From NCBI RefSeq assembly GCF_001570965.1, contig NZ_BCSR01000006.1, forward strand, positions 1 to 64,000: a stretch of DNA of 64,000 nucleotides, in the 5' to 3' direction. Numbering within the stretch: position 1 is the first letter of the stretch; every line of letters starts with the position of its first letter. The position numbers and the translations under genes are program-made. A model generated the notes under the pieces. The model saw only the letters and a program-made list of their open reading frames with translations, did no database searches and was not told the DNA's origin. Source of the stretch: Janibacter corallicola NBRC 107790. GTDB taxonomy: Bacteria > Actinomycetota > Actinomycetes > Actinomycetales > Dermatophilaceae. Below, piece after piece: positions 13,536 to 62,729 of the stretch.

Positions 13536-13616
13536 TCACAGCGCGGCGATCACCGCGACGACGAGGACGACGGCGAGCACGAGCAGCGTCATCCGCCGGC
13601 GGAAGCCGGGCGTCAC
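13536..13616 (-). CDS. 26-residue single-pass membrane peptide, coupled to MFS gene
   Basis: A GTG at 13616 overlaps the stop of the MFS gene (GTGA). It opens a 26-codon frame with a basic start (VTPGFRRR) and a hydrophobic helix MTLLVLAVVLVVAVIAAL that runs to the stop. It is too short for confident prediction. The tight coupling, the positive-inside leader and the perfect hydrophobic helix argue for a translated small membrane peptide, perhaps a partner of the transporter. No homologue is recognised. Confidence 0.45.
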   Translation of the reverse strand: MTPGFRRRMTLLVLAVVLVVAVIAAL

Positions 13617-14923
13617 CGCGCTGCCGCCCGGGCGACGTCCGGCACCGGCCGGGGCGGGACGGGCGGCCCCTCGTGGATCACCTGGAGGTGGGGGCGGCTG
13701 CTGCGGGAGTAGGTCACCCGGACATTCTCGTGCCTGATGAGCCAGCGGGAGACGGCGGCCACCGTGACCCCGACCGCGATCGCCCCGACGGCGACCGTCC
13801 AGCGGGCGCCGAGGGCGTCGGCGATGACGCCGAGGAGGGGCGCGCCCAGCGGCTTGCCGCCGACGAAGAGGGCCATGTAGAGCGCCATGACCCGGCCGCG
13901 CATCGAGGGTTCGCTGCGCATCTGCACCATCGCGTTGGCGGTCGTCGTCGCGGTCAACGCGGCGAGCCCGCACACGGCCAGGGCGATCGCGAAGGCCCAG
14001 TAGGTGGGGGCGAGGGCCGCCGCGGTCGCGGCGACGGTGAAGCCGACGAGCGAGATCAGCAGCACCCGCATCCGCGGCTGGTTGCGCCGGGCGGCCAGCA
14101 GCGCCCCGCTGAGCGAGCCGACGGCGAGGATGGTGCCGAGCAGCCCGTAGCCCTCGGCGCTCTTGTCGAAGACCTCTGTGGCCATGAGCGCGATCGTCAT
14201 CTGGAAGTTCAGCCCGAAGGTGCCGAGGATGAAGACGAGGACGAGCACGGTGAGGATGTCCGGGCGGCTGCGCACGTACCGCAGGCCGTCGATGGCCGAG
14301 CCCCGGCCTCCCTTCGCCCGCGGCGCGGGGCTCAGCTCGCTCCCGTTCATCAGGGCGAGCGCGATGATCACCGCGCCGAAGGAGGCGCCGTTGACGAGCA
14401 GCGCCGGGCCGGAGCCGAAGGCGGCGATGACCAGGCCGGCGACGCCGGGGCCGGCGAGGCGTCCGAAGTTGAACGAGGCGCTGTTGAGGGCGACCGCGTT
14501 GGCCAGGCGCCCCCTCGGGACCATCTCGGAGACGAAGGACTGCCGGGCCGGGTTGTCGAAGGCGGTGGCCAGGCCGGTCGCGAGCGCGATGAGGTAGAAG
14601 TGCCACAGCTCGGCGGTGCCGGTCACGACGAGCACCCCGCCGACGATCGCCGCGAGCCCGAGCATCGCCTGGCTGACCATGAGCAGGGCGCGCTTGGGCA
14701 CGCGGTCGATGACCGCGCCGGTCCACGGGGCGAGCACGAGCATCGGGATGAACTGCAGGCCGGTGACGATGCCCAGGGCGGTGCCGGAGTTCTGCGTCAG
14801 GACGGTCAGGACCACCCAGTCCTGGGCGGCCCGCCCCATCCACGTGCCGACGTTGGAGACGATCGCGCCGGTGGCGTAGGTGCGGTAGTTGGGGACGGAG
14901 AGGGAGGCGAAGGTCGAGCTCAT
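13613..14923 (-). CDS. MFS transporter (MarR-linked exporter)
   Basis: The 436-residue transporter has 12 predicted helices and a cytosolic C-terminal tail ending with Pro/Arg-rich sequence. The N-terminus MSSTFASLSVPNYRTYATG and the motif AVIDRVPKRALLMVSQ resemble enterobactin-exporter-like (EntS/DHA3) MFS proteins. The ATG at 14923 overlaps the marR stop (ATGA), so regulator and pump form one operon and the pump is probably MarR-controlled. Substrate is unknown. The gene is followed by the 26-residue peptide above, again by overlap. Confidence 0.85.
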   Translation of the reverse strand: MSSTFASLSVPNYRTYATGAIVSNVGTWMGRAAQDWVVLTVLTQNSGTALGIVTGLQFIPMLVLAPWTGAVIDRVPKRALLMVSQAMLGLAAIVGGVLVVTGTAELWHFYLIALATGLATAFDNPARQSFVSEMVPRGRLANAVALNSASFNFGRLAGPGVAGLVIAAFGSGPALLVNGASFGAVIIALALMNGSELSPAPRAKGGRGSAIDGLRYVRSRPDILTVLVLVFILGTFGLNFQMTIALMATEVFDKSAEGYGLLGTILAVGSLSGALLAARRNQPRMRVLLISLVGFTVAATAAALAPTYWAFAIALAVCGLAALTATTTANAMVQMRSEPSMRGRVMALYMALFVGGKPLGAPLLGVIADALGARWTVAVGAIAVGVTVAAVSRWLIRHENVRVTYSRSSRPHLQVIHEGPPVPPRPVPDVARAAAR

Positions 14924-15360
14924 CGGGCCGCGATCCGCGCCAGGACCTCGCTGGCCGCCGCGAGGGCGCGCCGGTCCTGCTCGCCCAGCTCGAGGATCCG
15001 CTCGTGCATCCACCGGTTGCGACCCTGCCGGGTGCGGCGCAGGGCCGCCCGCCCCTCGTCGGTCAGCTCGACGATGATCCGGCGGCCGTCATCGGGGTCG
15101 TCGTGACGGGCCACGAGGCCCTGGTCGGCGAGGCAGCCGACGGTGCGGGTCATGCTCGGGGCGGAGACCTTCTCCACGTCGGCGAGGGCGCGGGGGCTCG
15201 CCGGCCCGCGCTCGAGGCGGGCGAGCACGCTGAACTGGTGCGGGGCGATCTCCCCGGCGCTCTCGAAGCGGACCCGCCGGCTGATGCGCATGCACGCCAG
15301 CCGCAGGTCCTCGCTCAGGGCGCCGACCTCCCGCTCCGTGGCGACGGCCGTCTGGGGCAC
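14920..15360 (-). CDS. MarR-family transcriptional regulator
   Basis: The 146-residue winged-helix regulator has its DNA-binding region at SPRALADVEKVSAPSMTRTVGCLADQGLV and the typical wing DDPDDGRRIIVELTDEG. The start GTG at 15360 is preceded by GAGAGGAG; an upstream GTG at 15384 has no ribosome site. It overlaps the downstream exporter gene, a classic repressor–pump pair in which a small ligand relieves repression. A candidate operator lies upstream (15400–15412). Confidence 0.88.
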   Translation of the reverse strand: MPQTAVATEREVGALSEDLRLACMRISRRVRFESAGEIAPHQFSVLARLERGPASPRALADVEKVSAPSMTRTVGCLADQGLVARHDDPDDGRRIIVELTDEGRAALRRTRQGRNRWMHERILELGEQDRRALAAASEVLARIAAR

Positions 15361-15399
15361 GGGGACTCCTCTCGTGGTGGACACGTGGAGGAGAACTCA

Positions 15400-15412
15400 T
15401 TGCGTCGGCTAA
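15400..15412 (-). promoter_or_regulatory. Candidate MarR operator upstream of marR
   Basis: Read on the minus strand, TTAGCCGACGCAA has imperfect dyad symmetry (TTAGC...GCAA). It lies about 40 bp before the marR start in an otherwise featureless stretch. Size, symmetry and position suit autoregulation by MarR, but the symmetry is weak. Confidence 0.3.
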
Positions 15413-15424
15413 CTATTCCGCCGG

Positions 15425-15481
15425 CCCCCTTCGCCCAACGATGATCGGGTGACCCGATCATCGTCGCGGGGGCGAAGGGGG
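15425..15481. terminator. Long composite hairpin with CGAAGGGGG outer stem
   Basis: The inner part is a perfect 13-bp inverted repeat, ACGATGATCGGGT (15438–15450) and its complement (15452–15464), with one base between. It is enclosed by a second perfect 12-bp inverted repeat, CCCCCTTCGCCC (15425–15436) and GGGCGAAGGGGG (15470–15481). Together they can form a stem of about 25 bp. It starts 10 bp after the purine permease stop (15491, minus strand) and precedes the marR operon, so it is the likely terminator of the permease gene. The outer arms are two copies of the genome-wide word. Confidence 0.7.
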
Positions 15482-15490
15482 AGGAGGAGG

Positions 15491-16960
15491 TCAGCTGACG
15501 CCGAGCAGCCCCTTGATCGGGTCGATCGCGAAGTAGAGCACGAAGAGCACCGCGACGAGCCACATGAGCGGGTGCACGGTGCGGGCCCGGCCGCGCACGA
15601 CCCGGATGAAGACGTACGTGACGAAGCCGGCCCCGATACCCGCGGTGATCGAGTACGTGAAGGGCATGAGGATGATCGTCAGGAAGGCCGGTATCGCGAT
15701 GCCCAGGTCGTCCCAGTCGATCTCCTTGACCTGCTGCATCATCAGGAAGCCGACGAGCACGAGTGCCGGGGTCGCGGCCTCGTAGGGCACGACCGAGACC
15801 AGCGGCGAGAGGAAGGTCGCGAGCAGGAACATCACCCCGGTGACGACCGAGGCGAGCCCGGTGCGGGCCCCCTCGCCGACACCCGAGGCGGACTCGATGT
15901 AGCTGGTGTTCGAGCTGACCGAGGCGGCACCACCGGCCGCGGCCGCGAGGGAGTCGACGACGAGGATCTTCTGCGACTCCGGCGGGTTGCCGTCCTCGTC
16001 GAGCAGGTCACCCTCGGCGCCAACCGCGACCATCGTGCCCATGGTGTCGAAGAAGTCCGCGAGCAGGATCGTGAAGACGAGCAGGCTCGCCGAGACGATG
16101 CCGATCTTGTCGAAGGACCCGAGCAGGTTGAAGTTGCCGAGCAGCCCGAAGTCCGGGGCGGCGAAGAGGGTGTCCGGCAGGGTCGGGACGTTCAGGCCCC
16201 ACCCGGTCGGGTTGACCATCTTGCCCGAGGCATCGGTCTGGGAGCCGACGTGGAAGATCGCCTCGACGACGATCGCGAGCACCGTGGTCCCGAGGATGCC
16301 GTAGAGGATCGCGCCGCGCACCCGCCGCACGTGCAGCGTGATGATGACGAAGAGGCCGACGACGAAGACGAGCAGCGGCCAGCCGGCGAGGAAGCCGCCG
16401 ACCCCGAGCTCGCCGAGCGGGCCCCCTTCGGCCTGGCGCACGAAGCCCGCGTCGACCATGCCGACGACGGTGATGAAGAGGCCGATGCCGACGCTGATCG
16501 CGGTCTTGAGCTGCGGCGGGACGGCGAGGAGCACCGCCTTGCGGAAGCCGGTGAGCACGAGCACCAGGATGATCAGGCCCTCGATGACGATCAGGCCCAT
16601 CGCGTCCGCCCAGGTCATCTCCGGGAGCGAGGCGATGCCGAAGGCGACGAAGGCATTCAGGCCCAGGCCCGCGGCCAGGGCGAGCGGGTAGTTCGCGACC
16701 ACGCCCATGAGCACGGTCATCACGCCGGCGACGAGGGCGGTGCCTGCGGCGACCATCGCGAGGTTCGGCGCATCCCCTCCGCCGAGGAAGGTGCCCGTGG
16801 AGTCCGGCTGGGTCCCGATGATCAGCGGGTTGAGGACCACGATGTAGGCCATCGTGAAGAAGGTCGCGAGACCACCACGGATCTCACGCCCGACGGTCGA
16901 ACCACGCTCGGAGATGCGGAAGTGGCGCTCGAGGAGCCCCTCCCGGGCCGGTGCGCTCAC
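15491..16960 (-). CDS. NCS2-family purine (guanine/hypoxanthine) permease
   Basis: The 489-residue permease has about 13–14 membrane segments and is of the AzgA-like branch of NCS2 transporters, which import guanine/hypoxanthine/adenine with protons. Landmarks are GGLATFFTMAYIVVLNPLI near residue 28, GLGLNAFVAFG, the helix-10 region FDTMGTMVAVG and SNTSYIESASGVGEGARTG. GTG 16960 overlaps the DUF3027 stop (GTGA), so it belongs to the Csp–DUF3027–permease operon. A strong hairpin follows the stop. Confidence 0.9.
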   Translation of the reverse strand: MSAPAREGLLERHFRISERGSTVGREIRGGLATFFTMAYIVVLNPLIIGTQPDSTGTFLGGGDAPNLAMVAAGTALVAGVMTVLMGVVANYPLALAAGLGLNAFVAFGIASLPEMTWADAMGLIVIEGLIILVLVLTGFRKAVLLAVPPQLKTAISVGIGLFITVVGMVDAGFVRQAEGGPLGELGVGGFLAGWPLLVFVVGLFVIITLHVRRVRGAILYGILGTTVLAIVVEAIFHVGSQTDASGKMVNPTGWGLNVPTLPDTLFAAPDFGLLGNFNLLGSFDKIGIVSASLLVFTILLADFFDTMGTMVAVGAEGDLLDEDGNPPESQKILVVDSLAAAAGGAASVSSNTSYIESASGVGEGARTGLASVVTGVMFLLATFLSPLVSVVPYEAATPALVLVGFLMMQQVKEIDWDDLGIAIPAFLTIILMPFTYSITAGIGAGFVTYVFIRVVRGRARTVHPLMWLVAVLFVLYFAIDPIKGLLGVS

Positions 16961-54120: not shown

Positions 54121-55067
54121 GACGCTCCTCCCGGGTATCCCACCGCGTCCACGGCCGGCGGTCGCTGGGCGAGCGGGACCGGCCGGGCCCGCCAGCCCCC
54201 TTCGCGCGTGAACTGGTGCAGCTCCTGCGCCGCCGGCACGCCCGCGGTCTCGCCCCCGCAGCGGGCGCGCACGACGGCGAGCAGCTCGGCGGCCATGACG
54301 GCCAGGTCGTGGTCCTGCTGGTGGCGGTGGGCCCGCGCGCCGAGGTCGACCTGGGCGATGGCGCCCAGCCCGTGGGCGGTGAAGGTGTCGACGAGGGAGG
54401 CGATCTCCACGCCGTAGCCGGTGGGCACCGTGAGGGCCTCCATGAGGGAGCGGCGGGCGGCCCACTCCCCGGCCAAGGGCTGCACGACACCGGCGAGCTC
54501 GGGCCACCACAGGTCGAGCACCGGGCGGGCGACGAGCTCGGTGACCCGACCACCCTCGGTGCTGCGGCGCCCGTCGAGATCGAGGACCCGGTCGTACCAC
54601 CCCTTGACCAGCCGGGTGGCCGGGTCGGCCGTCAGGGTGCCGACGAGCCCGGTGACGAAGTGCGGCCCCCACTCGGTCAGGTCCGCGTCGACGAAGACGA
54701 GCAGCTCTCCGGTCGTGACGAAGAGGGACTTCCACAGCGCCTCGCCCTTGCCGGGGTTGCTGCCCAGGTGCGGTGCGATCTCGGCGCTCCTGTGGACCAC
54801 GGCGCCGGCCCCGCGGGCCACCGCGGCGGTCTCGTCGGTGGAGTCGGAGTCGATGACGACGAGCTCGTCGACGAGGGGGACCTCCTCCATCAGCGCGCCG
54901 CGCAGCAGCGAGACGACACCGCCGACGGTGCGGGCCTCGTTGCGGGCGGGGATGACGACGCTGACGCGCTCCCCCGTCTCCCGCAGGTGCTCGGCCACCC
55001 CGGCGGCGGTGAACTCCTCGTGGGCACGGCTGTGCACTGCCAACCAGTCACGGGTGGACGTGCGCAT
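54117..55067 (-). CDS. gpgS: Glucosyl-3-phosphoglycerate synthase
   Basis: The 316-residue GT81 glycosyltransferase makes glucosyl-3-phosphoglycerate from UDP-glucose and 3-phosphoglycerate. This is the first step to methylglucose lipopolysaccharides or glucosylglycerate. GT-A motifs: VSVVIPARNEARTVGGVV, ELVVIDSDSTDETA, NPGKGEALWKSLFVTTGELLVFVDADLTEW (DAD-type metal site) and VPTGYGVEIASLVDTF. The C-terminal GAIAQVDLGARAHRHQQ matches the family. AGGAG precedes the ATG. It is the first gene of a four-gene overlapping operon with folP2. Confidence 0.92.
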   Translation of the reverse strand: MRTSTRDWLAVHSRAHEEFTAAGVAEHLRETGERVSVVIPARNEARTVGGVVSLLRGALMEEVPLVDELVVIDSDSTDETAAVARGAGAVVHRSAEIAPHLGSNPGKGEALWKSLFVTTGELLVFVDADLTEWGPHFVTGLVGTLTADPATRLVKGWYDRVLDLDGRRSTEGGRVTELVARPVLDLWWPELAGVVQPLAGEWAARRSLMEALTVPTGYGVEIASLVDTFTAHGLGAIAQVDLGARAHRHQQDHDLAVMAAELLAVVRARCGGETAGVPAAQELHQFTREGGWRARPVPLAQRPPAVDAVGYPGGAS

Positions 55068-55174
55068 GCTCCTGGCCTCTCCGGGGGGATGGGCCCAGCC
55101 GGCCCCGCTCCATCGTATGCAGCGGGCGAAGGGGGCCTGCCGGCACCCGGCGGAGGCGGGCACCCGAGTGGCGG

Positions 55175-55247
55175 AGCTGGCGGGGGGACTCGAACCCCCA
55201 ACCACCTGTTTACAAGACAGGTGCGCTACCGATTGCGCCACGCCAGC
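55175..55247 (-). tRNA. tRNA-Thr (anticodon UGU)
   Basis: The minus strand folds into a cloverleaf: acceptor GCTGGCG/CGCCAGC, D-arm GCGC-aatcggta-GCGC, anticodon stem CCTGT/ACAGG with loop CTTGTAA (anticodon TGT, reading ACA). The T-arm is GGGGG-TTCGAGT-CCCCC, with discriminator T. CCA is not encoded. Length 73 nt. It lies alone between gpgS and the first rpf gene. Confidence 0.95.
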
Positions 55248-55322
55248 GGGCCCGGAACGAGGAAGGACCGGGGCCGCGGGCATCCTAGCCGCGGTCCCGG
55301 TCCGTCACCGAGTCCGGTCCCC

Positions 55323-56063
55323 TCAGAGGACGTTGCGGTTGAGGTAACCCTGCAGCTCGGAGGTGGTGCGCGGGCCCCAGATCCCGTCGACGGTGGCTCC
55401 GACGCGGCGCTGGAGGGCGGAGGTGGTCACCGGGCCGATGATGCCGTCCTGGGCGGTGCCGACCTCGCCCTGCAGGGCCTGACGGTCACCGCGGTCCAGG
55501 GAGCCGTCGACCGGCCGGTTCACCCAGGTCTCGATACCCGAGTTCGTCTTGGGGCCGCGGATGCCGTCGACGACGAGCTCACCGGCGGAGGCCGTGCTGG
55601 AGCTGGAGCTCGTGCTCGTGCGGGTCTCCGAGCGGGAGGCACGCTCCGTGCCCGAGTACGGGTCGACCCCGAGGCCGTTGGAGACGGTCAGGCCCGCCTC
55701 CTTGGAGCAGACCGGCCAGGCGCCGGGGCCCTGGACCTTCAGCACCTCCTGGGCGATGTCGATCTGCTGGGCCTTCGTCGCCTGGTCGGCGGTGGTGGCG
55801 TACTGCTGGCCACCGAAGCCCTTCCAGGTGTCGTAGGTGAACTGCAGGCCGCCGTAGAACGGGTTGTCGGTGTTGATGTCCCAGTCCCCGGAGGACTCGC
55901 ACATCGCGACGCGGTCCCAGACCGTGTCGGACGCACCGGCCCCGGTGGCCACGGCGACACCACCGGCCGCGAGGGCGGTGACGGTCAGGGCCCCACCGGC
56001 GAGGCGCAGACGGGTGCCGCGCCGGGAGGCGGGCTGATCGGGGAAGTCGGTGGTGTTCAGCAT
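55323..56063 (-). CDS. Resuscitation-promoting factor-like transglycosylase with peptidoglycan-binding repeats
   Basis: The 246-residue secreted Rpf-like muralytic protein has a signal peptide and helix (residues about 18–45, LRLAGGALTVTALAAGGVAVA). The Rpf catalytic domain (about 45–125) is VWDRVAMCESSGDWDINT, with the catalytic Glu in CESSG and [20 protein letters not shown] Ser/Thr linker follows, then three DGIxGPxT peptidoglycan-binding repeats (DGIRGPKT, DGIIGPVT, DGIWGPRT; residues about 165–245). It cleaves peptidoglycan and promotes exit from dormancy. It is tandem to a second Rpf gene. Confidence 0.9.
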   Translation of the reverse strand: MLNTTDFPDQPASRRGTRLRLAGGALTVTALAAGGVAVATGAGASDTVWDRVAMCESSGDWDINTDNPFYGGLQFTYDTWKGFGGQQYATTADQATKAQQIDIAQEVLKVQGPGAWPVCSKEAGLTVSNGLGVDPYSGTERASRSETRTSTSSSSSTASAGELVVDGIRGPKTNSGIETWVNRPVDGSLDRGDRQALQGEVGTAQDGIIGPVTTSALQRRVGATVDGIWGPRTTSELQGYLNRNVL

Positions 56064-56210
56064 GTACTCAATACCCTTTCGGTCGACACGGGCAGGGGCC
56101 CCGTGCTGGTCCGAGAAGGACGCTAGAGGCACACGAGTCACACAAACAACATCTGCCCCGTAAATACATCCCTGTAACTTACTCCCCAGTCACATCATCC
56201 GGGCACAGAA

Positions 56211-56243
56211 GAAGGGCCCCGCACCAGTGGTGCGGGGCCCTTC
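56211..56243 (-). terminator. Perfect 15-bp hairpin after the upstream rpf gene
   Basis: GAAGGGCCCCGCACC (56211–56225) and its exact complement (56229–56243) flank a 3-nt loop. It lies 24 bp after the stop of the second rpf gene (56268, minus strand), so the two rpf genes are separate transcripts. Confidence 0.75.
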
Positions 56244-56267
56244 GTCAGCTCAGTGCAGCGGTGCTGC

Positions 56268-57140
56268 TCAGAGGGCCTCGTTGAGGTGCTGCTGCAGCGC
56301 GCTGGTGGTCTGCGGACCCCAGATGCCGTCGGTGTTGGCACCGACGAGCTCCTGCAGCGCGGTGGTGGTCTCCGGGCCGACGACGCCGTCCTGGGTGACG
56401 CCGAGCTTGGCCTGCAGCTTCTGGATGTCGGAGCTGCTCAGCCAGTCGTCACCGTCGACGGATCCGCCGACCCACTGCTCGATGGCAGCAGCAGTGTTCG
56501 GGCCGACGATGCCGTCGACGGCGATGTCACTGGTGCTCGGGGCGGGGGCGGTGCGCTCGGTGCTCCGGGAGGGGGCCTCCTCGGTGGAGCGCTCGGTCGG
56601 GGTGGACTCGGTGGACTCGGTCGACTCGCTGGAGTCGGTCGACTCGGAGGAGTCGGTCGAGTCGGTGGACTCGGTCGAGTCGCTGGACTCGGTCGAGTCG
56701 GTGGACTCGGAGGAGTCGTAGGACTCGGTGGAGTCGCTCGTGTCGTAGCTGCCGCCACCGTTGCTGGAGGTCAGGCCGGCCTCCTGCGAGCAGACGGGCC
56801 AGGCGCCCGGGCCCTGCGCCTCCAGGACCTTCTGCGCGATGGTGATCTGCTGCTCACGGGTGGCGTCGTCGGCGTTGTAGCCGTAGGCGCCGCCACCGAA
56901 GGCCTGCCAGGTCTGGTGGGTGAACTGCAGACCACCGTAGAAACCGTTGCCGGTGCTGGTGGACCAGTTGCCGCCGCTCTCACACTGGGCGACTGCGTCC
57001 CAGACGCTGCTGGCCGAGGCGCTCTGCGCGGCGGCGACGGAGCCCACGGCTGCGGTCGCGCCTGCCACGGCGACACCGGCGATGCGGCGGCGGGCGGGCG
57101 AACCCTTCAGGACCTGGGCGTGCTTGGGCGAGTAGAACAT
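56268..57140 (-). CDS. Resuscitation-promoting factor-like transglycosylase, acidic-linker copy
   Basis: The 290-residue secreted Rpf-like protein has an N-terminal signal segment (residues about 20–44), then the catalytic domain [29 protein letters not shown] with the catalytic Glu in CESGG. The linker (about residues 135–190) is a long Ser/Thr/Asp/Glu repeat ([13 protein letters not shown] type). The C-terminus has three peptidoglycan-binding repeats [16 protein letters not shown] and DGIWGPQT. A long leader of more than 150 nt lies upstream; I could not match it to a known riboswitch. The linker distinguishes it from its neighbour. Confidence 0.9.
56596..56740. repeat. Hexanucleotide-like repeat encoding Ser-Thr-Glu/Asp linker
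   Basis: The stretch is built of degenerate GTCGAC/GTGGAC/TCGGTG units (for example GGTGGACTCGGTCGACTC) that encode alternating Ser-Thr-Glu and Ser-Asp in the rpf linker. Simple-sequence repeats of this kind can change length by slippage, giving variable linker length between strains. Confidence 0.7.
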
Positions 57141-57351
57141 GGGGATTGGGGTTTCCTTCCACGGAGTTTCAGGGGCTTCGTGGTTGAAGCTGCCAGACGG
57201 TCTGGCTGGCACCTCGTGGGTGCCGTTCTGATGTGTGTGAACTGCCAGAACTGACTGGCTTCGTTCGCGGACGTTTCGGAACGTTACCTTCCCGTGATCT
57301 GGCAATGCAACCTGACTCGCCCGTGACGTGGAACTCACCGCCCGCTTACGT

Positions 57352-59022
57352 TCAGGTCTCCTCCCGCTCATCACTGTTGCGTCGTTCGGCCTCGCGAGCC
57401 GAGGTTTCCCGGCGCCGTTGTGCCACAGGCGAATCGAAGGGGGCCGCCAGTCGGTCACCGAGCGTGGCACCGGTCGCGATCGCCATGATGATGCCCAGAG
57501 CAGTCAGGACCTCGACGATGCCCTGCTGGACCATCGACCCTTCGGTGACGTCCGCGGGACCGACCATGTGGTACAGCCCGAGGAAGATCGCCAGACCGGG
57601 CAGCAGGCCGAAGGTGGCCGGTACCTGGATGGTCAGCGCGGGGGCGTCCTTGCGCAGGGCCACCACGCGGGAGAAGAAGCCGATGACCACGGCCGCGAGG
57701 CCGGTCGCGGTGACCCGCCCGACGCCCAGGTCGGACATGAAGGAGGCTGCGGCGACCCCGACGGCGGAGAGGCCGCCCGACCACAGGAGCAACCGCTCGT
57801 GGCCCAGCATGGTCATGGCTCCGGTCAGGCCGATGAAGCCGGCCCCGAGGAGGACCAGGGGGAAGGGGGCCGTGGCCCACTCCAGCTGCTCCAGCGGCGG
57901 CGGCCGCAGGCCGATGTGGAGGACCGTCACGGCCTGCAGGCTCAGGCCCAGCCCGCCGGCGACACCGATGATCAGGCCGAAGGTGTGCAGCATCACCTCG
58001 AAGAGCCGGGCCGTCCCCGTCACGGGGAACCCGGAGAGCACGTCCTCCATCGCCGAGGTCAGCGTCAGCGAGGGCAGCAGGAAGACGATGCCACCGGCCA
58101 TCGCGAAGACGAAGTCGCTGGGATTGAGCGGCACCGCGTCCTTGACGCTCAGCAGGTACCCGCAGAAGGCGACGATCGTCGCCGCGGCACCGCCGAGCGC
58201 ACTGAGGTAGAAGTCGGGCAGGTTCAGCCCCGAGACGAGCTTCGCGGCCCCGCTGACGGCGGTGACCGCCAGGAACGCGAGCACGAGGCCGCCCGGGCTC
58301 GCCCCGAGCATGAGCGCGACGCCGGCGGCGACGCTGCCCTCCGCGCAGGTGACGACCCACCGCGACCAGGTCCGGGGGGAGGTGTTGATCTCCTTGAGGC
58401 GCTGCTGGGCCTGCTCGATGTCGACGTCGCCGTCGACGAGGTCGTCGACGAGGGAGTGGACCTGGGACAGCCGTCCGAAGTCCCGCCGCGGCTGACGCAC
58501 CACCCGCAGCCGGGAGATGGTCTGGCCGGACGGGGTGCGGCACTGCATGTGCATCGACTGCATCGTCAGGTCGACGTCCATGTCCTCCAGCCCCGCCACG
58601 ACGCCCACCGCGGTCGTCGCCGCCTCGACGGCGCTCGCGCTCGAGCCGCAGCGCAGCATGACCTCGGCGACGCGCAGCGCGAGGTCCATCGCGCTCGCGG
58701 CGGCCTGCTCCTCCGCGACCGCACGCGTGACACGCGGGTCACGGTAGGGAGTGCCGCGCAGCGAACCCCGCAGCGGGATGGTCTCGGTCGGGTTCTCCCC
58801 GCGCAGCGAGGGCCGACGTCGCGGCTTCGGCTGCGGCCCCTGCGGCGGCGTGGGCTCCGACGTCGCGAAGGGCCGTGCCCGCCGACGGACAGGACGCTGC
58901 TGCTGCACCGGGATGGCCTGCGCCCCCGGCTCCTGCTTCCGCGGGGGCCGCTGCTTCGGCTGGTCGTCCTGCGGCCGCGCGCGGCGGGGCCTGCGTGGTT
59001 CCGGTGGCGGCGGTGTCGTCAT
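57352..59022 (-). CDS. ThrE-family threonine/serine exporter
   Basis: The 556-residue membrane protein of the ThrE family exports L-threonine/L-serine. It has a disordered Pro/Arg/Gln-rich N-terminus (residues about 1–110) and a cytosolic DUF1212 part (about 120–220, [15 protein letters not shown]). Ten helices follow in two groups (DUF1212 and DUF3815), including [37 protein letters not shown] and [18 protein letters not shown]. Fused two-domain architecture is the actinobacterial form. The start overlaps the kinase stop (ATGA). A CGAAGGGGG word lies near the 3' end (57435). Confidence 0.88.
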
Positions 59023-60701
59023 AGGCCGGGCAGCTGCGGCGGGTCAGGCACGGGCGATTCCAGCATGGGCCACCACGAGACGTCCAGCGAGCCCAGCACG
59101 AGACCACCGAGGACGATGAGCCCGACGGCCAGCAGCGCCAGCACGGCCACGACCCGGAAGGGGGTCGGCGTCGTCACCCCTCGGACCATGCTGCGGCTGC
59201 CCCGGCGCAGGCTCGGCCCGCCGGGCCCCCACCAGCCGATGACGATCGCGAGCAGCGCGCCGACGGCGATGGGGGCAGGGTCGTCCAGGCGCACCTCGTG
59301 GCCGCCCGTGGAGGCGAGTGCGACCGCCGTCGCGAGGAGCCCCGCGGCGCCGACGAGCAGGGGCAACAGGGCCGTCGTGATCGTGGCGAGCAGCGCGCCC
59401 AGCAGGTGCAGCGGGCTCGATGCCACCGCGACCGGCGTGTCGCTGCGTCGGTACCCGCGGCGGTAGCGGCGACGCACCGTGGCCGTCATCGACTTGTCCA
59501 CGGTCCGGGCGACCAGGGACCACAGCAGCACGACTGCCACCCCGACCCACGGCAGGGCGGCGGTCAGCGCCACGAGCGCCACGAGCAGCGAGGCGAGCAC
59601 GTCGCTGCGCTGCGGCTTGCCGATCCGGGGGTCCCCCGGCCGGTCCGAGAGGCCGGGCGCGACTCCGGGCCACGGCCTGCGGCCGTCGCTCGGCTGCGGC
59701 GCGGGCGCCACGGGTTCGGGCTGCGGGTTCGGGTCCTCCCAGGCCCCGCTCCCCCACGGGGGCGGCGGCTGCTGCGGCTGCGCCGGCAGCTGCCGGGTGC
59801 GGTCCGGCTCGAGGGTCCGGGTGCGCTGCGGCAGCACGTCGGTGACGGGCCGGCCGTGGGCACGGGCCTCCAACGCCGCGATCACCTCGTCGGCGTCGGG
59901 GCGCAGCTCGGGGTCGGGGGTCAGCGCGGCGTGCAGCAGCGGCGCCAGGTCCGGGTCGACGTCCCGCAGGTCCGCCTCGCCGCGCGCGACCCGGGAGAGG
60001 ATCGCCTCCATACCGCCACGGCCGAAGGGGGACCGGCCGGTCGAGGCGAAGACGAGCGTGGCCGCCCATCCCCACCAGTCGGTCGCGGGGGTGACGTGAC
60101 CCCCTTCGACCAGCTCCGGGGACAGATAGCCCGGGGTGCCCATGACCAGCCCGGTCATCGTCATCCGGGAGGTGTCGGCGATGTGGGCGATCCCGAAGTC
60201 GATGACGACCGGCTCGCCGTCGAGCATGAGCACGTTGCCCGGCTTGAGGTCACGGTGGATGACCCCGACGCCGTGGATGGCCCGCAGCGCCTCCGCGAGA
60301 CCGCGGGCGAGGGAGAGCAGCTGCTGGGCGTCGAGGGGGCCCTGCTCGTGGACGTACTGCTCGAGGCTCGGCCCCGGCACGTACCGGGTGACGATGTAGG
60401 GCTGCTCGGCCTCCAGATCGGCGTCGAAGACCGGCGCGATCCGCCTCGAGCGCACCCTGGCCAGCGTGTCGACCTCGCGCGAGAGGCGGGCGCGGGCGTC
60501 CTCGTCGTGCGCGACGTGGGCACGCAGCACCTTGATGGCCACCGCCCGACCGCGCTCGTCGAGCGCCAGGTGGACGATGCCCATGCCCCCTTGGCCGAGC
60601 TGCTGGAGCACCCGGTAGGGGCCGATCCGTTCGAAGTCCGCCACTGGCACGCTCCCACGCTCGTCCGGGGCGGGGTCCTCCCCGATGAGCTCAGTCGTCA
60701 T
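59019..60701 (-). CDS. Serine/threonine protein kinase with membrane region
   Basis: The 560-residue protein has an N-terminal Hanks-type kinase domain (residues about 25–280). The P-loop is LGQGGMGIVHLAL, the catalytic Lys is in AVAIKVLRAH, the loop is VIHRDLKPGNVLM, the DFG is VIDFGIAHI and the activation segment is MGTPGYLSPE. A Pro-rich linker (about 285–350) precedes a C-terminal membrane region with about six hydrophobic segments (from residue about 366), so it is not a single-pass PASTA kinase. TAGTCT lies 6 nt before the ATG (leaderless). It is coupled to ThrE, so the exporter may be a target. Confidence 0.92.
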   Translation of the reverse strand: MTTELIGEDPAPDERGSVPVADFERIGPYRVLQQLGQGGMGIVHLALDERGRAVAIKVLRAHVAHDEDARARLSREVDTLARVRSRRIAPVFDADLEAEQPYIVTRYVPGPSLEQYVHEQGPLDAQQLLSLARGLAEALRAIHGVGVIHRDLKPGNVLMLDGEPVVIDFGIAHIADTSRMTMTGLVMGTPGYLSPELVEGGHVTPATDWWGWAATLVFASTGRSPFGRGGMEAILSRVARGEADLRDVDPDLAPLLHAALTPDPELRPDADEVIAALEARAHGRPVTDVLPQRTRTLEPDRTRQLPAQPQQPPPPWGSGAWEDPNPQPEPVAPAPQPSDGRRPWPGVAPGLSDRPGDPRIGKPQRSDVLASLLVALVALTAALPWVGVAVVLLWSLVARTVDKSMTATVRRRYRRGYRRSDTPVAVASSPLHLLGALLATITTALLPLLVGAAGLLATAVALASTGGHEVRLDDPAPIAVGALLAIVIGWWGPGGPSLRRGSRSMVRGVTTPTPFRVVAVLALLAVGLIVLGGLVLGSLDVSWWPMLESPVPDPPQLPGL

Positions 60702-60765
60702 GGGTCCAGACTAGGGCGACACGGGTGTGAGTTGTCGCAGCGCTACCTGAGTGCCTGCTGATGCC

Positions 60766-61194
60766 TCACTGCTGGATGTAGGCCTCGAGGTGGTCCCGCT
60801 CGGCCGCCAGCGCGTCGATCCGGTGCTTGACGATGTCGCCGATGCTCACCACGGCCTGCAGCTTGCCGTCGCGCAGCACGGGCACGTGGCGGATGCGTCG
60901 CTCCGTCATCCGGGCGGCGAGGTCGGCGACCTGGTCGTCCTCCTCACAGGTCTGCACCTGGCGCGTCATGATCGCGCTCACCGGCCCCTCGAGGACGCCC
61001 ACCCCGTCCCGGTGCAGCCGTCGCACGACGTCCCGCTCCGAGACGATGCCGACGACGACACCGTCCCCGGAGGTGACGACGACGGCGCCGATGCCGTGCT
61101 CGTCCAACGCGGCGAGCAGCTCGGTGACGGTCGAGTCGGGCGACACCGTGAACACATCGGTGCCCTTGTTCCGCAGCACGTCCGAGATCTTCAT
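60766..61194 (-). CDS. Tandem CBS-domain protein
   Basis: The 142-residue protein is made of two CBS motifs (residues about 1–65 and 72–135): MKISDVLRNKGTDVFTVSPDSTVTELL and VSAIMTRQVQTCEEDDQVADLAARM, RIRHVPVLRDGKLQAVVSIGDIVK. CBS pairs bind adenosine nucleotides such as AMP, ATP or SAM and sense energy state. No catalytic domain is attached. TAGCGT lies 6 nt before the ATG, indicating a leaderless mRNA. It is divergent from otsA. Confidence 0.92.
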   Translation of the reverse strand: MKISDVLRNKGTDVFTVSPDSTVTELLAALDEHGIGAVVVTSGDGVVVGIVSERDVVRRLHRDGVGVLEGPVSAIMTRQVQTCEEDDQVADLAARMTERRIRHVPVLRDGKLQAVVSIGDIVKHRIDALAAERDHLEAYIQQ

Positions 61195-61280
61195 GTATCG
61201 ACGCTACCGGGCCGCCGATCCCAGCGGTAGCCCTTGCGCGGTACATAGGCTGGTCACCACCGACCGTCAGGAGCACTGCC

Positions 61281-62729
61281 GTGGCCACTCGCAAGTTCGA
61301 CCTCGTCATCGCCGCCAACCGCCTGCCCGTCGACCGTGTCGTGGGTCCGGACGGCAGGAACGAGTGGCACCGCTCCCCCGGGGGCCTGGTGACCGCGATG
61401 GACTCGGTGATGCGACATCGCGACGGGGCCTGGGTCGGCTGGGCCGGTGAGGCGGGTGAGGCTCCGGCCCCCTTCGCCGAGGCGGGCATGTGGCTGCACC
61501 CGGTGCCGGTCTCGCGGGAGGAGATCACCTCCTACTACGAGGGCTTCAGCAACGAGACGCTGTGGCCGATCTACCACGACGTCATCGTGCCGGCCCACTT
61601 CCACCGGGAGTGGTGGGCGGACTACCGGGCGGTCAACGAGCGCTTCGCCGAGGCCGTGTGCGACGTCGCCGCGCCGGGCGCGAAGGTGTGGATCCACGAC
61701 TACCAGCTGCAGCTCGTGCCCGCTCTGGTGCGCGAGCGGCGCTCCGACGTGCGGATCGGCTGGTTCAACCACATCCCCTTCCCGCCGGTCGAGCTCTTCG
61801 CCCAGCTGCCGTGGCGCTCACGCATCATCGAGGGCCTCCTCGGCGCCGACTACCTCGGCTTCCAGCGCCAGGCCGACGCCCAGAACTTCCTGCGCGCGGC
61901 CCGGCAGCTCGACGGGCGCACGACGAAGGGGGAGACCGTCACCACCACGGACCCGGACGGCTCCGTCCGCGTGGTGCGGGCCTCCGCGGTGCCGATCAGC
62001 GTGGACTACGAGGGCCTCGACGAGCTGGCCCGCACCCCGGCGGTGGAGCAGCGGGCGGAGCAGATCCGGGCCTCGCTCGGCGATCCCGAGGTCGTCATGC
62101 TCGGCGTCGACCGCCTCGACTACACCAAGGGCATCCGGCACCGCCTCAAGGCCTACGAGGAGCTCCTCGTCGATGGCACCCTGCGCTCGCCGGAGGTGAC
62201 CTTCGTGCAGGTCGCGACGCCCAGTCGGGAACGGGTCGCGGCCTACCGGCAGCTGCGCAGCGAGGTGGAGACGACCGTCGGGCGGATCAACGGGACCTAC
62301 TCGGCGATCGGCCGGCCGGCCCTGCACTACCTGCACCGCAGCTACCCGCGCGAGGAGATGGCCGCGCTCTTCCAGATGGCCGACGTCATGCTCGTCACGC
62401 CGCTGCGGGACGGGATGAACCTCGTCGCCAAGGAGTACGTCACGTGCCGCCACGACGACGGCGGCGCCCTCGTGCTCAGCGAGTTCACCGGCGCCTGGCA
62501 CCACATGAAGCAGGCCTTCGTGTGCAACCCGCACGACATCGAGGGGCTGAAGCTGACGATGATGCGCGCGATCGAGACCGACCCCCGGCAGAAGCGGCGC
62601 CAGATGCGTGCGCTGCGGCGCCAGGTCAGCGAGAACGACGTGCAGACCTGGGCCGACCGGTTCCTCACGAACCTGGAGCTGGCCCCGGAGCGGCCGGACC
62701 GCACCGGGGCGAAGGGGGCCCGGCCGTGA
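61281..62729 (+). CDS. otsA: Trehalose-6-phosphate synthase
   Basis: The 482-residue GT20 enzyme makes trehalose-6-phosphate from UDP/ADP-glucose and glucose-6-phosphate. Landmarks: LVIAANRLPVDRV, WVGWAG, VWIHDYQLQLVP, RIGWFNHIPFPP, MLGVDRLDYTKGI and the nucleotide-sugar site LRDGMNLVAKEYV. It starts at GTG 61281 after CAGGAG. It overlaps otsB (GTGA). Trehalose is an osmoprotectant and storage sugar, in keeping with a nearby compatible-solute importer. Two CGAAGGGGG words (61924 and 62710) are inside and a CCCCCTTCG one at 61468. Confidence 0.93.
   Translation: MATRKFDLVIAANRLPVDRVVGPDGRNEWHRSPGGLVTAMDSVMRHRDGAWVGWAGEAGEAPAPFAEAGMWLHPVPVSREEITSYYEGFSNETLWPIYHDVIVPAHFHREWWADYRAVNERFAEAVCDVAAPGAKVWIHDYQLQLVPALVRERRSDVRIGWFNHIPFPPVELFAQLPWRSRIIEGLLGADYLGFQRQADAQNFLRAARQLDGRTTKGETVTTTDPDGSVRVVRASAVPISVDYEGLDELARTPAVEQRAEQIRASLGDPEVVMLGVDRLDYTKGIRHRLKAYEELLVDGTLRSPEVTFVQVATPSRERVAAYRQLRSEVETTVGRINGTYSAIGRPALHYLHRSYPREEMAALFQMADVMLVTPLRDGMNLVAKEYVTCRHDDGGALVLSEFTGAWHHMKQAFVCNPHDIEGLKLTMMRAIETDPRQKRRQMRALRRQVSENDVQTWADRFLTNLELAPERPDRTGAKGARP

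Follow-up and report, generated by a model that had tools for sequence, protein, structure and literature searches.

A hairpin past a purine permease gene of Janibacter corallicola carries at its base two inverted copies of an abundant genome word that resembles a DNA uptake sequence

To our knowledge, uptake words have been described only in the Neisseriaceae and Pasteurellaceae, and we know of no account of how such words start or change. The neisserial DNA uptake sequence (DUS) is a short exact word that occurs on both strands, about a thousand times or more, restricted to its lineage, conserved above its surroundings and denser between genes than within them, and it forms close inverted pairs past stop codons, with a preference for the word followed by its inverted copy (+-) over the reverse arrangement (-+) (PMC1852404, PMC2397512, PMC3630211). 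As described below, the Janibacter word CGAAGGGGG is like the DUS in all of these respects. Terminators built from uptake sequences in Neisseria and the Pasteurellaceae share the preference for +- pairs and show peaks of spacing near 8 and 19-22 nt (PMC1852404). A second group of structures that is relevant here is formed by the U-less hairpins, which terminate in vivo in an operon of Mycobacterium tuberculosis (PMC5335608), and by the mapped terminators of Streptomyces, which are long stable hairpins with few Us or weak U tracts (PMC12207403).

The stretch of DNA that we analyzed, called here the window, comprises 64,000 nucleotides of Janibacter corallicola NBRC 107790 (contig NZ_BCSR01000006.1), a species whose closest named genomes are those of Janibacter indicus and J. 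terrae. It contains a long hairpin (Table 1) which, as the preliminary description had it, is situated past the stop of a purine permease and before a marR operon. The permease is of the xanthine/uracil type, its stop codon is located at 15491-15493, and the permease, marR, and major facilitator superfamily (MFS) genes are all on the minus strand, with about 40 nt between the hairpin and the start of marR. The complete element reads CCCCCTTCGCCC-A-ACGATGATCGGGT-G-ACCCGATCATCGT-CGCGG-GGGCGAAGGGGG, in which outer arms of 12 bp, both perfect, are joined to a perfect 13+1+13 inner palindrome through an asymmetric interruption of 1 and 5 nt. The preliminary description of perfect 12-bp arms made of the word around such a palindrome was correct to the base, and its stem of about 25 bp corresponds to the 25 pairs that we counted in all. 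Each of the arms consists of the 9 bp of CGAAGGGGG plus 3 bp of flank, a commonly preferred one.

Table 1. Coordinates of the hairpin, its parts, and the neighboring genes in the window
Feature	Position	Strand	Basis or remark
Whole hairpin, probable U-less terminator or 3'-end hairpin of the purine permease mRNA (predicted)	15425..15481	-	Sequence, RNA fold, hairpins of relatives at the same place
Stop-proximal arm GGGCGAAGGGGG	15470..15481	+	Holds the word CGAAGGGGG at 15473-15481
Stop-distal arm CCCCCTTCGCCC, only in this species	15425..15436	-	Second, inverted word at 15425-15433
Inner perfect palindrome ACGATGATCGGGT-G-ACCCGATCATCGT, upper stem	15438..15464	.	Unique in 864 kb of the genome
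Purine/xanthine permease gene	15491..16960	-	Xan_ur_permease PF00860, E 1.5e-29; gene call
marR-family regulator gene	14920..15384	-	PF12802 and PF01047; own gene call starts at 15360
MFS transporter gene, overlaps the end of marR (marR operon)	13613..14923	-	PF05977/PF07690
Conserved marR promoter/operator region (predicted)	15388..15415	-	Alignment: ATAGTTAGC...AATGAG(TT), TTAGCACA..TGTGCTAA symmetry in relatives

The proposed stem also holds up when folded: as RNA of the permease strand, the region forms a single hairpin of -55.2 kcal/mol, while its dinucleotide shuffles reach -31.8 +/- 3.3 (z = -7.1), and none of 200 shuffles folded equally well. Like a canonical intrinsic terminator, the hairpin is GC-rich, strongly folded (z of -7) and close to the end of the gene, its near word (which on the permease strand reads CCCCCTTCG) lying 9 nt past the stop codon, but the second hallmark of that class, a U-tract directly past the stem, is missing. 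The stem is followed by CCGGCGGAATAG; we found neither a U-tract nor any terminator-like site, and the reading as a canonical U-tract terminator was dropped for lack of a U-run. What we see is the long stable stem without a U-tract that is typical of the U-less (I-shaped) terminators of Actinobacteria, with which the hairpin shares the GC-rich stem, the short loop and the absence of a U run; it is unlike the known examples in that part of its stem is a word repeated throughout the genome. The reading as a U-less terminator is weakened because, in vitro, a mycobacterial polymerase failed to terminate at such hairpins and needed a U-tract (Czyz 2014, as reported in PMC5335608). The only resemblances in Rfam were to eukaryotic microRNAs and snoRNAs, all below threshold, and these are chance matches to a hairpin, and the inner palindrome was ruled out as a repeated element, as no other copy occurs in 864 kb of the same genome. 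Taken alone, the hairpin is an ordinary, well-formed gene-end element.

We consider it fairly probable that this hairpin, at whose base CGAAGGGGG stands in two inverted copies, is a 3'-end element of the permease transcript. The word shows the properties known from DNA uptake sequences; we infer both that the hairpin terminates transcription and that the word exists for DNA uptake. The long, GC-rich and U-less stem would most likely stop transcription or help to stop it, either alone or by pausing the polymerase for Rho or NusG, one of which may contribute. It would also protect the end of the permease mRNA and keep the permease transcript from entering the marR operon. The base of the stem would have been assembled from the two inverted copies in steps: the stop-side copy is presumably old and was retained for its own sequence, and the distal copy would have arisen later in this lineage, turning a separate word and hairpin into one longer stem.

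The word itself is frequent throughout the genome. The window contains 43 copies of CGAAGGGGG, 40 times the expectation from shuffles (mean of 1.07), and the 3.1-Mb assembly contains 1,666, divided into 833 per strand, compared with 22 for the reversed control. It is also sharply defined, as a 464-kb sample had 263 exact copies and mostly under 50 of each one-mismatch neighbor, and in 864 kb of the same genome it was the sharpest of all 9-mers (478 copies, with 107 for the best one-mismatch neighbor). The copies are preceded by GG or GA and followed by a base other than G, with G at position -2 in 71% of them, at -1 in 47% and at -3 in 45%. Both strands are used equally in three regions of the complete genome G063 (76/77, 35/30, and 30/32 copies), and a polar site of the Chi or KOPS type was discarded with these counts; a Shine-Dalgarno function was rejected too, with few intergenic copies found in sense just upstream of starts. 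In a second species with 79% nucleotide identity, the word was intact at 32 of 62 aligned places, and permuted words were so at 143 of 1,032. For the statistics of placement we used 864 kb of the same genome and 400 kb from each of two relatives, in which genes were predicted with a simple script of our own and not with a published gene finder; on these gene calls, the density was 1.25 copies per kb in intergenic DNA versus 0.47 in coding DNA. Bins of 5 kb sorted by GC content alone contained 0.9 words when below 68% GC and 2.4 to 3.1 elsewhere. A segment of 8 kb lacks the word (contig C1 of G000, 54497-62611, L039-L040) and has a TadB/C-type gene pair at 59026-60374.

In scans of the family and the order, CGAAGGGGG was confined to Janibacter and one sister genus. 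It was found in about 800 to 1,860 copies per genome in all 16 Janibacter genomes and in 1,317 to 1,939 copies in the three genomes of the sister genus, and it was at background level in the other 51 genera of the family scan and in the additional genera of the order that were sampled. A tree of the permease groups both genera that have the word in a single clade (support of 100/99). A search of the literature for the letters of the word gave only unrelated sequence strings among the matches listed. In Janibacter genome G063 (L077-L096) we also observed a second sharp word, the palindrome ACCCTAGGGT, with about 23 sites in 400 kb located inside long intergenic hairpins; the J. corallicola sample did not have it among its sharp words.

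Inverted pairs of the word recur at gene ends through the genome, and the finding that would have refuted the preliminary description, a lack of further inverted pairs near stops, was not made. Among intergenic pairs within 60 bp, we counted 23 inverted and 1 direct in the J. corallicola sample and, pooling the three genomes, 43 inverted versus 5 direct (p = 7e-9), the inverted ones being 35 +- (CGAAGGGGG...CCCCCTTCG) and 8 -+ (CCCCCTTCG...CGAAGGGGG). The nearest stop codon is mostly 5-30 nt away, many of the pairs form perfect stems of 13-21 bp, and 17 of 44 are located in convergent spacers, the scarcer kind. As these inverted pairs cluster just past stops, the likeness to Neisseria that had been claimed for the use of a genome word as a terminator stem holds for the genome, where the gene-end pairs, the +- bias and the spacer peaks (near 8 and 20-25) are all found. 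For the hairpin under study it holds less well, with its minority -+ orientation, its missing U-tract and a near word that is unpaired in relatives. Other differences from the neisserial DUS are the actinobacterial host with 72% GC, the unrelated word, the little or no U-tract that follows the pairs in general, and the fact that no ComP-type receptor was identified in Janibacter. With the uptake signal sequences (USS) of the Pasteurellaceae the word shares the spacing of the pairs, the spacers of Janibacter +- pairs clustering at 6-9 and 20-28 nt (USS, near 8 and 19-22 nt), and the small proportion of copies that are part of terminators, but it lacks the AT-rich extended flank of the USS.

We compared the locus in ten Janibacter genomes in which permease and marR are linked and three genomes of the sister genus. 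The region past the permease stop folds better than its shuffles in all ten linked Janibacter loci (z from -2.1 to -7.7), with hairpin sequences that are unrelated among them. The word CCCCCTTCG is found within 10 nt of the stop in seven of these ten genomes, and within about 15 nt in two of the three sister-genus species. The second, inverted copy was found only in the species of the window; the near copy of the relatives is usually single and unpaired, so a stem is not what preserves it there. Judging by these alignments, the near copy appears to be old and kept as a sequence, and the hairpin to be kept as a shape. With a near copy that is conserved, hairpins that change and a second copy restricted to one species, the long stem would be a recent joining of both. 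At one locus past the permease stop (L138 of G092), we found a long G run that is probably an assembly artifact.

The same comparison supplies part of the case for a serious alternative, in which termination is due to the inner palindrome only and the two words flank it by coincidence, the near one being ancestral and the distal one having landed across the stem by chance. The relatives manage with one word and a separate hairpin, Neisseria also prefers the +- form, and in the J. corallicola sample pairs of the rarer -+ form to which ours belongs do not clearly exceed chance, with 4 observed and about 1.4 expected from random placement, so that chance joining remains a rival to be taken seriously. 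On the other hand, the words form precisely the base of the stem and are accompanied by three more complementary bases, for which we estimate from the flank frequencies a chance probability of about 0.06, and together they bring the stem to 25 pairs from 13. We regard a coincidence as rather unlikely.

An alternative that we find similarly doubtful accepts the hairpin as a terminator but assigns to the word some genome-wide role other than uptake, such as a Chi-like recombination site, a site for a nucleoid or chromosome-organizing protein, or an RNA processing signal. The competence genes give it some room. ComEA and ComEC are encoded side by side on contig C25, both scoring below curated cut-offs, and TadB/C-type genes are also present; however, ComEA/ComEC were found in all 20 family genomes tested, with the word or without it, so they explain nothing by themselves and are not specific to the word-bearing genera. 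We found no report of natural transformation in Janibacter in the literature searched. Against such other roles, the absence of strand bias is contrary to the polarity of Chi or KOPS, and the presence of the word on both strands of genes and in spacers is contrary to an RNA signal; moreover, the pattern of inverted pairs at gene ends matches that of known uptake sequences, and sister lineages have a different word of the same habit. The reading of CGAAGGGGG as an uptake sequence draws on several features seen in DUS and USS: a high copy number on both strands, a sharp and lineage-restricted word conserved above its surroundings, close inverted gene-end pairs with an orientation bias and, with the restriction just given, genes for competence machinery. 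Taken together, its abundance, sharpness, conservation, restricted lineage, unbiased strands and gene-end inverted pairs make up the profile of a DNA uptake sequence, and the CGAAGGGGG system looks like an undescribed actinobacterial counterpart of the known ones.

The inner palindrome had also been proposed as an operator. That its 27 bp are the operator of the MarR regulator is very improbable: a perfect palindrome does sit upstream of marR, but it is specific to this species and unique in the sample, and it is missing from all relatives with an orthologous marR, which share TTAGCACA..TGTGCTAA beside the start, so that the conservation upstream of orthologous marR genes expected of such an operator is not found. 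The conserved MarR-type box sits elsewhere, between the hairpin and marR, and, going by the alignment of the marR upstream region, in which TAGTTAGC and AATGAG are invariant across six species, this box is the likely operator. In the species of the window, the right half of the box of its relatives is eroded and marR is intact. Finally, the idea that such arms are an artifact to be expected in a genome with 72% GC is hardly tenable: perfect hairpins with arms of at least 12 bp are common in this genome (47 in 864 kb or 54 per Mb, 39 of the 47 intergenic), but a shuffled 200 kb contained only one, and neither the fold of the hairpin nor the excess of the word over shuffles in the window agrees with it.

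The different word of the sister lineages came from a scan for sharp words in 40-kb samples of ten other genera, several of which had a word with the core CGGCATAC that was then counted over 188 genomes of the family. In about 30 genera of the family each genome has roughly 400 to 4,700 copies of it, and it stays at background in Janibacter (9-38 copies), in the sister genus (7-41) and in the other families sampled; some genera of the family show neither CGAAGGGGG nor CGGCATAC. Like CGAAGGGGG, it occurs in hundreds to thousands of copies per genome and is denser between genes, but its sequence is unrelated and its -+ pairs are at least as common as the +- ones. In genome G166 (L183-L192) it is a compact, scattered word (189 copies in 200 kb, 0.95 per kb), and in G041 (L179-L180, L193-L202) it is part of a longer motif. 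Past the stop of the orthologous permease, GTATGCCG was found in four genomes (G041, G045, G139, and G171), and the word-in-hairpin pattern was seen at this putative permease terminator in both lineages. At locus L143 (G139), an inverted pair GTATGCCG ... CGGCATAC flanks a hairpin stem past the orthologous permease stop.

Other repeats were noticed in the same samples. The G041 sample (L179-L180, L193-L202) contains CAACACACCCG, a sharp word with 18 copies in 240 kb that is apparently unrelated to CGGCATAC. In genome G014 (genus g6), ACGAAATGCGG is repeated at a spacing of about 63 bp (L173, about 1838-1990) and occurs also as pairs GCATTTCGT..ACGAAATGC; this is a repeat of another type.

The occurrence in one family of two unrelated words that behave alike suggests dialects and a single complete replacement. 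It is quite possible, and we propose it tentatively, that this actinobacterial family has uptake-sequence dialects, with CGGCATAC in about 30 genera and the unrelated CGAAGGGGG in the Janibacter clade, each built into gene-end hairpins. The hairpin past the permease gene shows, on a modest scale but clearly, a genome word that has become part of a gene-end structure. If the dialects are true, they would mean that sequence-specific uptake of DNA also exists outside the Proteobacteria and that a word was completely replaced, presumably together with its receptor. A family with one abundant word shared by most genera and one clade with a wholly different one would make the receptor findable by genome comparison, and the origin and replacement of uptake words directly testable.
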